Positions 23,923-28,084 of a DNA stretch of 32,358 bases are shown in pieces. Location of the stretch: contig JAGOXX010000002.1 of the NCBI GenBank assembly GCA_018059485.1, forward strand, positions 1 to 32,358, read 5' to 3'. The position numbers and the translations under genes are program-made. Under the pieces are notes generated by a model. The model saw only the letters and a program-made list of their open reading frames with translations. It made no database searches and was not told where the DNA came from. Positions within the stretch are counted from its first letter, which is position 1. Each line of letters begins with the position of its first letter. The DNA comes from Aeromonadaceae bacterium (lineage in GTDB: Bacteria; Pseudomonadota; Gammaproteobacteria; Enterobacterales; Aeromonadaceae).

Positions 23923-24765
23923 TCAATAGAGCAGGGTATAGAGCTGGCGTCGGTAGCGGCTGGCGGCAGCATCGCCAGCCATGGTGGCTAGAATATCTAG
24001 GTAGATTTTTTTGGCTTCGCCAAAAGAGAGATCGTGACGCAAGATGCCCAGCAATAACTCCAGGGCCTCCTCCTTGCGTCCAGACTGACTGTACTGGATG
24101 GCCAGCTCCTGCTTGAGTAAGCCATTGTTGGGATCCTGGCTTAGTCGGCTCTCCAGGGCCTGGATCTCCGGGCTATCCGCGGCCTGTTCGGCCAATTCGA
24201 GTGCGGAGATCAGCCGCGCATAATCGGAGTCCTGGTCCACCATGGGGATTTGCGCCAGCAGTTCTTTTGCTTGGGCCAACTTTTGCAACTGAAGGCTGCA
24301 GTCGGCGAGGGCCAGGTTGATATCGCTACGGTTCAGAACCAGCTTGCGGGCTGTGAGCAGAGCCTCATAAGCAGTTTGTACGGCTCCACGACTCAAATCG
24401 GCGCGAGCTTGCTCCAGTAGCAGATCTTCCTCTTTGGGTTGGTAACTGGCGAGGAATTGCTGGGCTCCAGCCAGTTGTTCAGCACCCATAATGGCGTCTA
24501 CGGGGCGTCCTTCCTTGAATAGCACCAGAGCCGGGAGTGCTTGTAGCCCCAACTGCACAGCCAGACCTTGCAACTGGGGGTTGCTGACATCGACCTTGGC
24601 TAGAGTCAGATAGCTGTTGGCTGTGCCAACCAAGGTCTCGAGCTGACCGGTTATTGGCTGACATTCCGGGAGTGCATCGGCGTAAAAATAGACGGCGATG
24701 GTTTTGGTCATGGAGGCGTCGATGAGCTCGGCGCGGAAATTCTCAGGTGTAATTTGGATGATCAT
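23923..24765 (-). CDS. cnoX: CnoX/YbbN-type thioredoxin-TPR chaperone
   Basis: CnoX is a cytoplasmic holdase that protects proteins from oxidation by HOCl and works with GroEL. The thioredoxin domain at about residues 1-110 is followed by TPR helices ending LASRYRRQLY-like in the form AASRYRRQLYTLLY. It aligns along its length with E. coli CnoX (LALQ..GRNEEALELL here AIQYSQSGRKEEALELLLGIL). The redox motif is reduced to one cysteine, Cys35 in ALPEC, as in E. coli SQHC. The ATG at the complement of 24763-24765 gives 280 residues; its ribosome site is weak. It lies downstream of lapC rather than in the ybb region as in E. coli. Confidence 0.9.
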   Translation of the reverse strand: MIIQITPENFRAELIDASMTKTIAVYFYADALPECQPITGQLETLVGTANSYLTLAKVDVSNPQLQGLAVQLGLQALPALVLFKEGRPVDAIMGAEQLAGAQQFLASYQPKEEDLLLEQARADLSRGAVQTAYEALLTARKLVLNRSDINLALADCSLQLQKLAQAKELLAQIPMVDQDSDYARLISALELAEQAADSPEIQALESRLSQDPNNGLLKQELAIQYSQSGRKEEALELLLGILRHDLSFGEAKKIYLDILATMAGDAAASRYRRQLYTLLY

Positions 24766-24799
24766 GACAAGCACTCTGCGATAGATGTAACCCATATAT

Positions 24800-24869: not shown

Positions 24870-26756
24870 TCAGGGAGGGGAGGGTGAGCCGTTGATGCCC
24901 TTGAATCGCCCCAAATCACGCATGACTTTGAGCAGCGCCGGCATATCCGGTCGTCCATCGTCGATGACGTCATACGTGGATGCATCGCGGACTTCAAAGT
25001 TACCTTGTCGGTCAAACAAGGTGATCTCTTTGTCTCCAACGATGACAAAGTGGCGACTATTACCGCTGAGCAGCCATTTGCGAGGTTGCTGTTGCAACAA
25101 AGAGCGTCCAGCCGAGTAATCATCGACCGGGGAGCTTACCCCGAATAACTCAGGAAGTAGCGTGGGAACCAGATCCTGATGGGAGCTGATCTCGTCATGC
25201 TGTTCGGGAGCCTTACCTGGCCAGGCAAGAATCATGGGGACGCGCATCTGAGCCTTGGAGTAGTTGCTGCCGGCGCCCCAATTATCCTGACCGCTCTCGC
25301 CCAGCTCAAAGCCGTGATCACTGGTGATGATGATCAGTGTATTGTCCATCAACTGGGCTGTTTGCATCGATTCAAACAGAGTCCCTAACAGTTGATCAAC
25401 ATAGAAGACGGCATTTTTATAGCGATTGATCAGCTGGGGGCGCAACTCCGGAGAGATAGAGTTGAACGGATCGAGTCGTTTGAGCTCTGGCTGGTTTGGT
25501 CCCTGATAGTTGGCTGGTAGCTCCAGGCTGCCGGGTCCATCGAGCGATAGATAGGTAAACCAGGGTTGGTCCTTTGGCTGACCTTGTTGCCAGCGCATCA
25601 AGTTCTCCAGCGTCAGCGCATCCGACTGGGTACCAGCCTGCGTACGCTTGTGGCGGATCCCACTGAAAATGGCCTCTTGGTAGATAGGCAGATCCAGTCC
25701 CTGAGTGGAAAAGGCTTTGATGCGGTACTCCTGGCGCTGCATCTCGTCCAGCAACAAGGGGGAGCGTTTATCGGCTTCTACATCATCGGCATATTGTGCT
25801 GGAAGACCATAAAACAGGGAAAAGAGGCTGGTTTCGGTTTCATTGTCGCCAGCGATGTGGTTGACGTAGCGTTGATGCTGTTCGGCAAACCGCTGGAGAT
25901 TGGGCATGTTGATGTTGTTGACCATGTCTTGCCGTAGCCCCTTGAGGACGATCAGCATCAGGTTCAATTTCTGCTCGCGTGGCTCAACCTTCAATGGTGC
26001 CAGCGGATAGTTGAGGCGGCGTAAGGGCTGTGCCGAGTAGTTTTTCTGGCGCGCCTTGAACTCCTGTAGGTCAAGCCAACCATGTCGGGCCAGGAAAGAA
26101 CGAGCCGTCATCGGGTAGGAGAGGGGGAAATTTGATTTTTGCGCCACTATGGGGGTGTAGAAACTGGCATCGGCCCATATGTGCGTCAAATGAGTAATCA
26201 AGAATGACGAAAGGAATAACAGAACCAAGGAACGACCGACCAGGCGGTTAGGGCGTTTGAACTGCCGTTTCCAAGCCAGATTAGAAAAAACGATTTCCAA
26301 TAAGACTATGACTGGAATAGCAATGAATAGAAAATTCCAATTCAGGTTGGCTTTGCTCTGTGCAGGCTCAAATAGCAAACTCCATACGAAAGGGTTCAGA
26401 TGGAATTTAAGTAAATGATACACCTGTGTATCAATAAGTAACAAAGTCTGTATCGCGACAGCAATCAGTATTGATAAGCTGCGTAGGAGTCTTTGGTTCG
26501 TACAAACAAAGGTGAGCGGGAAGATCGTCAGCAGGAATAATATGAATCCTATAAAGCCAAAATGCCCAATCCAACTGACCAGCAGGTAGAACTGTCCCAA
26601 TCCTGTGGTTGGCCATGGTGTCGCGATAATGAAACGTATCGCAATCAACATGCCTAATAGGATATTGAAAAACAGAAACCAATGACCCCAACTGATCAGT
26701 CGCGAAACGTTTTCGCGATACTGGAAACTTGAGTTTTTAGAAAAAATCTCATTCAT
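24870..26756 (-). CDS. lapC: LapC/PbgA (YejM) inner-membrane sulfatase-like protein
   Basis: In E. coli this protein senses periplasmic lipid A and restrains LpxC degradation by LapB-FtsH, setting LPS levels. The 628-residue protein has an amino-terminal membrane part with five likely helices (about 25-45, 57-80, 90-112, 140-160, 172-192). The inter-domain WADASFY...PLSYPMTARSFL is strongly conserved with YejM, and an alkaline phosphatase-fold domain runs from about 262. Where sulfatases and E. coli YejM have Asp in the first metal loop (VDGL), this protein has Lys272 (IVLKGLRQDM). TSDHGFELGES, lost in E. coli, is retained. It lies 17 bases after yejL and is co-transcribed with it. Confidence 0.93.
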   Translation of the reverse strand: MNEIFSKNSSFQYRENVSRLISWGHWFLFFNILLGMLIAIRFIIATPWPTTGLGQFYLLVSWIGHFGFIGFILFLLTIFPLTFVCTNQRLLRSLSILIAVAIQTLLLIDTQVYHLLKFHLNPFVWSLLFEPAQSKANLNWNFLFIAIPVIVLLEIVFSNLAWKRQFKRPNRLVGRSLVLLFLSSFLITHLTHIWADASFYTPIVAQKSNFPLSYPMTARSFLARHGWLDLQEFKARQKNYSAQPLRRLNYPLAPLKVEPREQKLNLMLIVLKGLRQDMVNNINMPNLQRFAEQHQRYVNHIAGDNETETSLFSLFYGLPAQYADDVEADKRSPLLLDEMQRQEYRIKAFSTQGLDLPIYQEAIFSGIRHKRTQAGTQSDALTLENLMRWQQGQPKDQPWFTYLSLDGPGSLELPANYQGPNQPELKRLDPFNSISPELRPQLINRYKNAVFYVDQLLGTLFESMQTAQLMDNTLIIITSDHGFELGESGQDNWGAGSNYSKAQMRVPMILAWPGKAPEQHDEISSHQDLVPTLLPELFGVSSPVDDYSAGRSLLQQQPRKWLLSGNSRHFVIVGDKEITLFDRQGNFEVRDASTYDVIDDGRPDMPALLKVMRDLGRFKGINGSPSPP

Positions 26757-27004: not shown

Positions 27005-27073
27005 CGGGTCGATCCTTTTTGCGGTGATTGGAGCTTATAATACTGCACATCTTTGGCTAACACTATGATTGCT

Positions 27074-28084
27074 ATGAGTGTACAGAATATCTCCATGGTG
27101 CTGCATGCCTTGCGCCATCACGTCGAAAACGGTGTTGTATCAGAGCTGAATCAGCAGCTGATTGCGGCTACCGAGCCAGTGGCTGACCTTGCTCTTGTGC
27201 TTCATCAAACATTCCAGCAGAAAACTAACCGAGGCTATGCTGCATTTAGTGATGCCACGAGTGGGGATTCATCTTTTCCGACATTACTCGCTGAGTATCT
27301 CGATGGTAAATTAAATTTTATTGACTTCTCTTGTTCAGCAACTCAATTGTTGACGACTGCCATTAATAAGTACTCCTTAATTTGTGAAGGGTATTTGTAT
27401 TTTATTCATTACCAATATGTTGGTGCTGATTATTTGATGGTTGGTATATTTGAGGATGAAGAGAGTGTCAGCTTTACGGACGGCTTTGATATTCAGAAGG
27501 TGAAATATATTGATTTGAATAATATGGGTCTGGTGGCCCGTATTGATTTATCTCAATATCGAATTTCCGCAGAGAATAGGCGTTATATTTCATTTATCAA
27601 GGGGCGAGCGGGCAGAAAGGTTGCTGACTTCTTTATGGAGTTTTTAGCAGCCGAGGAGGGCATTGATCAAAAACTGCAAAATGAAACCTTGGTCAAGGCT
27701 ATTGCCAGTTATGCACAATCCCAGAACTTGCCTACTGAGCAGGTATATGAAGCGAAGAAAGAGTTGCAGAGCTATTGCAAGGAGCAGCTGAAGTCAGGGG
27801 CTGATCTCGAGAGCAAACGGATGGGTGAGATCATGCCAGGTTCGGAGACGGGTGATTTTTACTCGTTTTTGACTGAGTCAGTCGGCCTGCCCGAGAGTTT
27901 TCCTCCCAGTCCAAGTGCATTGCGAACCATGACCAAGTATGTGGGCTCTGGTGGCGGATTGACGATCAGCTTTGATCAGAAGTTGCTGGGGCAGCGGATC
28001 AGTTATGATCCGGTTACCGATACGTTAACGATAGTTGGCATGCCACCCAATTTGAAAGATCAACTGCTGCGGAATAATCACTAG
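27074..28084 (+). CDS. yejK: Nucleoid-associated protein YejK (NdpA)
   Basis: YejK is an abundant nucleoid-associated protein, reported in the literature to interact with DNA topoisomerases in E. coli. The 336 residues align throughout with E. coli (335): ARIDLSQY, FIKGRAGRKVADFFMEFL, SYCKEQLKSG and KYVGSGGGLTISFDQKLLG, then PPNLKDQL. ATG 27074 (MSVQNISMVLHAL) best matches the E. coli start; ATG 27065 and TTG 27053 are also in frame and none has a strong ribosome site. Codon use between 27300 and 27600 is noticeably AT-rich relative to its neighbours, but homology is continuous. Confidence 0.95.
   Translation: MSVQNISMVLHALRHHVENGVVSELNQQLIAATEPVADLALVLHQTFQQKTNRGYAAFSDATSGDSSFPTLLAEYLDGKLNFIDFSCSATQLLTTAINKYSLICEGYLYFIHYQYVGADYLMVGIFEDEESVSFTDGFDIQKVKYIDLNNMGLVARIDLSQYRISAENRRYISFIKGRAGRKVADFFMEFLAAEEGIDQKLQNETLVKAIASYAQSQNLPTEQVYEAKKELQSYCKEQLKSGADLESKRMGEIMPGSETGDFYSFLTESVGLPESFPPSPSALRTMTKYVGSGGGLTISFDQKLLGQRISYDPVTDTLTIVGMPPNLKDQLLRNNH

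Follow-up and report, generated by a model that had tools for sequence, protein, structure and literature searches.

Whether LapC, also called YejM or PbgA, is an enzyme is a question on which published accounts disagree, and it is raised anew by a lapC-like gene in the window, the whole stretch of 32,358 nucleotides from an Aeromonadaceae bacterium that was analysed here. In this gene, a Lys occupies the position of the first metal-binding Asp of the site. Gabale et al. described a Mg-dependent phosphatase activity of full-length YejM, which was lower in the T302A, R451A and H468A variants, as well as Mg density at the YejM site (PMC7576196). On the other hand, YejM was stated to be without catalytic residues (PMC7018646, PMC7240159), was termed a 'pseudo-hydrolase' in a Klebsiella structure paper in which no metal site was seen (PMC13125744), and was described as an LPS-sensing anti-adaptor (PMC9356133). 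A 2025 review called the relevance of the phosphatase activity unclear and noted that phenotypes of Mg-site variants had gone unreported (PMC12444477), and a 2026 review listed the YejM substrate as unknown (PMC13333357). A report on Vibrio cholerae vc2041 found that cultured cells require its DUF3413 part, and that survival in the rabbit depends on its sulfatase part (PMC4222735).

Judged by its sequence, the window gene is a lapC orthologue, an ordinary LapC by architecture with one unusual residue (Table 1). The frame begins with ATG and continues for 628 codons with 0 internal stops, and the PF11893 and PF00884 scores of the product both exceed their cut-offs. NCBIfam model NF038282 (LapC_YejM_PbgA) was the best of 24 models, at 530.8 bits; the curated cut-off of this exception-type model, 825 bits, was not reached, and we take it to be tuned to proteins nearer to that of E. 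coli. The lipid A motif YPMTARRF is matched in 7/8 letters. The gene order yejK / yejL-lapC is the same as in E. coli K-12, with the neighbours named by position and size. On the 3' side of lapC, the same strand encodes a 290-aa thioredoxin-like protein (window 23923-24795, minus strand), which by eye we take to be CnoX/YbbN-like. LpxC was present in 7/7 genomes searched, including the window's own, and LapB in 6/7, including both same-genus genomes. LapB had no match in G000, the window's own assembly of 203 contigs, probably reflecting a gap, as this assembly is 71.7% complete.

Table 1. Features of the lapC region in the window, and members of the sister family with an intact site in other genomes
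Feature	Position	Strand	Details
lapC/yejM orthologue, 628 aa	24870..26756	-	DUF3413 + Sulfatase domains; top PDB matches YejM, E 9.8e-116; adjoins yejL-/yejK-like genes
DUF3413 transmembrane + linker region, residues 12-256	25989..26723	-	PF11893, 311.2 bits
Sulfatase-fold periplasmic domain (Pfam span), residues 283-535	25152..25910	-	PF00884, 134.2 bits
YPMTARSF, residues 214-221	26094..26117	-	Equivalent of E. coli lipid A-binding YPMTARRF
Lys272 codon AAG	25941..25943	-	Column of E. coli Asp268 and first metal ligand
Thr307, kept	25836..25838	-	Column of E. coli Thr302
Gly409, site residue lost	25530..25532	-	Column of E. coli Asn403 and sister-family third-position His
TSDHG, residues 478-482	25311..25325	-	Asp480 and His481 kept; E. 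coli: TAGRG
Ala495, site residue lost	25272..25274	-	Sixth site column; sister family: His in WGH
yejL-like ORF, 76 aa	26774..27004	-	Directly upstream of lapC; named by position and size
yejK-like gene, divergent	27053..28084	+	Name given from position and size, as in E. coli
Sister-family member L004	G002:C32:33078-34847
Further sister-family members			L118, L119, L121-L123, L125, L126, L129, L133-L136, L250, L253-L258, L261, L263, L265-L267, L271-L276; L271 is the one with an incomplete site

Lys272 lies in the context LIVLKGLRQDM, and its codon, read on the minus strand from 25943 to 25941, is AAG. In both the HMMER and MAFFT alignments, it falls without a gap on Asp268 of E. coli YejM (ITVDGL). 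The first-pass annotation of this DNA, which had proposed a Lys in place of the first metal Asp, an Asp retained in E. coli, and a TSDHG segment kept here and lost in E. coli, is thus borne out on all three points. It had also allowed for a shifted alignment in which another Asp fills the position. Asp277 was considered as such a shifted metal Asp and ruled out: in a seven-row alignment (A3), the 7 intact sister proteins described below have two invariant Asp residues, D271 and D276, one at each place. The AlphaFold2 model of the site that it had suggested was built from an alignment of 41 sequences and reached a mean pLDDT of 81.7 and a pTM of 0.65. A strand is predicted at residues 265-271, with a mean pLDDT of 95-96 there, and since it ends at 271, Lys272 directly follows strand 1. 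Residues 194-220 were poorly predicted.

The nearest relatives also lack the Asp. The column holds His in the same-genus genome G002 (sister species), whose LapC is 60% identical to the window protein over residues 1-620 and, over the C-terminal 450 residues, identical to the LapC encoded on a public 'uncultured Aeromonadaceae bacterium' contig. Genome G001 gave no DUF3413 match. Ser was found in 9/9 proteins of the Tolumonas group (g5), while Aeromonas (g2) has Asp in 20/22 and Asn in 2/22, one of them Aeromonas simiae, and the Oceanimonas-Zobellella-Oceanisphaera group (g4) has Asp in 18/18; these groups were named by protein identity. In the tree, the window protein joins the sister-species LapC with an SH-aLRT of 98, and these two join one Tolumonas and five f3 rows with 100. 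Given that the relatives read His or Ser, the Asp seems to have been lost around the window lineage, with Lys as the local outcome.

In the main set, Lys occurs at this column in 1/177 LapC-side proteins. It is also aligned there in five LapC-side proteins of family f7 (L289, L293, L295, L298 and L299), although these are divergent and their alignment at the column is less sure. As far as these alignments go, the window protein shares its Lys at this column with others, and f7 may have arrived at this residue independently. Lys in the window protein and the five f7 rows might have been selected, for example as a replacement of the cation. A rule by which a basic residue replaces the metal found no support: Lys or Arg stands at any site column in 22/177 proteins, although it does so in 10/20 of the extension set described below.

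To place these changes in a wider frame, we compared the site across related proteins. A search with the window protein as the single query found no relative, while a profile search for related loci kept 80 loci from 583 relatives. The main set of 217 loci, less 25 duplicates, gave 192 proteins: 177 LapC-side proteins, 13 proteins of a sister family and 2 EptA-like outgroup proteins. The LapC-side proteins are a sample of the matches obtained and comprise everything outside the intact clade and the outgroup. A site was counted as complete when it had the EptA-type set of Asp/Glu, Thr/Ser/Cys, His, Asp, His and His.

A complete six-residue site was found in 0/177 LapC-side proteins. Four proteins keep none of the residues, 65 keep one, 81 two, 26 three and one (L181) four, so that 176/177 keep at most three. 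The first column reads Asp in 92, Asn in 42, Glu in 20, Ser in 19, and Lys, His, Ala and Arg in one each. The nucleophile column holds Thr in 12/177 and Ser in 10/177, and the third-position His is present in 1/177. The fifth column is His in 138/177, and 20/177 have a His at some place close to the sixth. The commonest sets differ among the groups: S,H,A,D,R,S in Tolumonas, D,D,G,N,H,Y in Aeromonas and D,P,N,G,H,F in the Oceanimonas group. Asp268 was stated to be 100% conserved across homologues in a 2020 paper (PMC7576196). Taking E. coli together with f19, a family placed beside it by its thinned tree rows, the column is Asp in 8/8 proteins; the statement therefore fits a sample close to E. 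coli, but fails beyond it.

These counts bear on two further points of the first-pass annotation. Its view that two lineages had broken different halves of the metal site was too narrow, as all 177 LapC-side proteins are incomplete, in many patterns. In the alignment, three of the six residues are lost from the window protein (K,T,G,D,H,A), those at the first, third and sixth positions, and four from E. coli, whose His468 falls close to, but outside, the sixth column; the third-position His is absent from both. The annotation had also reasoned that Asp in most relatives would imply a sequencing error or a strain-specific change. By count, the relatives come close to this (92/177 with Asp, 112/177 with Asp or Glu), but the nearest ones are without Asp, so that neither an error nor a strain-specific change explains the loss.

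Some genomes carry a second DUF3413-Sulfatase protein. These proteins form a separate clade (12 thinned rows, SH-aLRT 99), and the 13/13 first found have the set D,T,H,D,H,H. A profile search of 394 genomes gave 30 best sister loci, 18 of them new, and the set is complete in 17/18 of the new ones, bringing the total to 30/31 sister-family proteins with a complete site. The single incomplete protein, L271 (G333:C28:14092-15903), has the set A,A,N,D,H,H and is possibly a second, independent pseudoenzyme. The sister protein L004 shares 30% identity and the same two domains with the window protein over the full length, and four intact sister proteins score 212-340 bits with NF038282.

The surroundings of some sister genes hint at a link with the LPS inner core. 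Homologues of waaA and kdkA were found in 6/13 sister regions (f1, f3 twice, f12 twice and f22) and were absent from the other 7/13. The queries were drawn from L218, L219, L221 and L222 themselves, and 6/6 positive regions match the queries of other regions. Among sampled sister neighbours, a Kdo kinase scored 315 bits (cut-off 142), a Kdo transferase 554.9 (cut-off 438) and a heptosyltransferase II 378.2 (cut-off 134.6). The waaA/kdkA queries matched 0/81 LapC loci, with flanks of mostly at most 3 kb a side, shorter than the sister regions; a yejK homologue was found in 80/81 LapC loci, the locus that provided the query included. The intact site and the neighbourhood together make the sister family a candidate LPS inner-core modifying phosphotransferase. 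In the mainly open-access literature on DUF3413, YejM and PbgA, we found no description of an intact DUF3413-Sulfatase sister family.

We then asked how the site fares relative to the rest of the domain. Forty-eight periplasmic columns are invariant in at least 30/31 sister proteins, 6 of the site and 42 others. The sister residue is kept in LapC with a median of 0.13 in the site columns versus 0.82 in the others (one-sided rank test, p 0.002, a guide value given that the rows are related). In the 94 thinned rows, the corresponding values are 0.16 and 0.73 (p 0.003). On this alignment evidence, the LapC site residues are lost selectively. Nevertheless, on the 94-row tree the first Asp changed 22 times and the DHG His 21 times, as compared to 33 for the median periplasmic column (change percentiles of 0.32 and 0.28). 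Since both residues change less than most periplasmic columns, some constraint remains, which is perhaps structural.

The transmembrane and linker region is strongly conserved. T213, A214, D104 and H114 (E. coli numbering) are identical in 177/177 LapC-side rows, the first two corresponding to Thr217 and Ala218 of the window protein, and position 215 is basic (Lys or Arg) in 174/177 LapC-side proteins. It is Asn, rather than Arg or Lys, in 10/13 sister proteins. The second 'tandem arginine' (Arg216) is Ser or Thr in 152/177 LapC-side proteins, including that of the window. The Klebsiella structure paper assigns a lipid A-binding role to YPMTARRF (PMC13125744), and the T213D/R215D/R216D variant of YejM was no longer reversed by Kdo2-lipid A (PMC9356133).

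A late extension covered families f7, f15 and more of f3, which had been thinly covered before. Of 26 genomes searched, 25 had a match; 29 new loci, less 1 short one and 4 duplicates, gave 24 proteins, which were scored against both profiles. Twenty of the 24 were nearer the LapC profile, and among these the site was complete in 0/20, each having at most two of the six residues; the five with Lys, all from f7, are those named above. The remaining 4/24 were nearer the sister profile, with a complete site in 4/4. In f15, matches came from 2/3 genomes searched, G088 being the one with no match, and all three proteins scored (L279, L280 and L305) were nearer the sister profile and had an intact site with Glu first, as in EptA. 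No eroded LapC was seen among these three, suggesting that the intact protein may do LapC's job in f15.

The tree sets bounds on how this comparison is to be read. The window protein groups with the LapC rows, apart from the intact clade (SH-aLRT 99), with deep branches resolved in part. The EptA-like outgroup, L003 and L005, sits on a branch of length 4.24, which makes the root unsafe. In a quick tree, the intact clade lies within a 23-row group together with the LapC-side f6, f16, f17 and f21 rows (SH-aLRT 95), implying that the LapC-side proteins may not be one clade. The alignment of L003 and L005 is shifted by a few residues at the third and sixth columns, with a His visible beside them, so the EptA equivalence there rests on motif position.

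The most serious competitor to a pseudoenzyme is a LapC that has remained a metal-dependent enzyme, its site shifted and variable. Thr307, Asp480 and His481 would then hold one metal, Lys272 would take a charge role, and other lineages would use other ligands. Those three residues are indeed present in the window protein, the fifth-column His recurs in 138/177, and YejM, itself without a full set, was reported to be active (PMC7576196). However, the leftover residues differ between genera, leaving no common chemistry, and the nucleophile is Thr in just 12/177 and Ser in 10/177. We therefore regard a shifted-site enzyme as unlikely.

Far less probable are two accounts that confine the matter to the window. 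Lys272 could stem from faulty sequencing or assembly, or be private to one draft genome, as the fragmentary source (203 contigs, 71.7% complete) and the single Lys in the main set would allow; yet the reading frame is intact, Lys recurs in the five f7 rows, and the column is His in the same-genus genome and Ser in 9/9 Tolumonas-group proteins. As an account of the Asp loss, error is refuted by these relatives, and only the exact letter could be wrong. Several canonical residues are gone, as would also be expected if the whole gene were decaying and the site were lost along with it, but a 628-codon frame without stops, 60% identity to the sister species and conserved transmembrane and linker residues make this hardly credible.

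We thus consider it probable, with good confidence, that LapC is an LPS-sensing pseudoenzyme and that Lys272 is one of many breakages. Weighing against this are the phosphatase activity and Mg density described for YejM, the constraint left on the first Asp and the DHG His, the His near the sixth column in 20/177, a possible selection of Lys, the missing LapB match in G000 and the intact f15 proteins. The first-pass annotation had favored a sensing rather than a catalytic role, and our results support that direction; the single Lys alone would have been weak evidence, and it is the comparison with the intact sister family that carries the argument. The sequences themselves show the homology, the site residues, how widely the site is lost in the sample, the selectivity of that loss and the conserved linker and transmembrane residues; that LapC is inactive, senses LPS and binds LapB, and that the change ran from intact to broken, on a tree whose root is unsafe, is what we infer. 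In the proposed mechanism, the transmembrane region and linker of LapC would bind LapB or lipid A, and LapC binding would decide whether LapB hands LpxC to FtsH, as is established for E. coli and presumed here. The periplasmic domain would be an alkaline-phosphatase/sulfatase fold that is no longer an enzyme. With catalysis gone as a constraint, its metal site may have come apart in different ways within the order. The window lineage would have replaced the first metal ligand by Lys and two site histidines by Gly and Ala, keeping Thr307, Asp480 and His481 in a site that is incomplete. Selection would still act on the fold, the lipid A motif and the transmembrane residues.

A broader reading, to which we give about even weight for and against as a whole, is that two sister systems exist: LapC, a pseudoenzyme LPS gauge, and the intact family, an enzyme that adds the headgroup of a phospholipid to the inner core of LPS. 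On this reading, LapC would be a former LPS-modifying enzyme whose metal site was lost separately in many lineages. If the sister family does modify the LPS core, this would explain why a lipid A sensor has an EptA-like fold. The 'pseudo-hydrolase' and the sensing view are already published for Enterobacteriaceae; as far as our literature searches show, this analysis adds the natural losses of Asp268, a count across the order and a sister family with an intact site. Given the disagreement on YejM, the LapC comparison offers a clean natural experiment, in which natural LapC proteins without the first ligand provide a ready negative control and the intact sister family a positive control.

Among known systems, the window protein is closest to LapC/YejM/PbgA (6xlp, 6v8q, 6vat and 5i5h), with which it has the domains, the yejK-yejL-lapC order and the fold in common; its model matched seven YejM entries with Z scores of 40.3-45.6, versus about 31-32 for LtaS entries (4uor: Z 32.0, rmsd 3.2, 328 aligned). 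The lipid A-linker motif is the same as that of E. coli save for Arg216, which is Ser. The differences lie in the site, where the window protein has Lys for Asp268 and TSDHG for TAGRG, placing His481 at the Arg451 column, and in the stretch from 408 to 442, which is about 24 residues longer when aligned with Salmonella YejM. EptA and LtaS share with it the periplasmic alkaline-phosphatase fold, the transmembrane anchor and the nucleophile Thr column. EptA, however, keeps Glu, Thr, His, Asp, His and His, of which we take the Asp to be Asp452, whereas the window protein retains only the Thr, the Asp and the DHG His. The EptA residue list derives in part from PMC7576196. The intact sister family has the two domains of the window protein, but all six site residues in 30/31 members, and its set is that of EptA with Asp in place of Glu.
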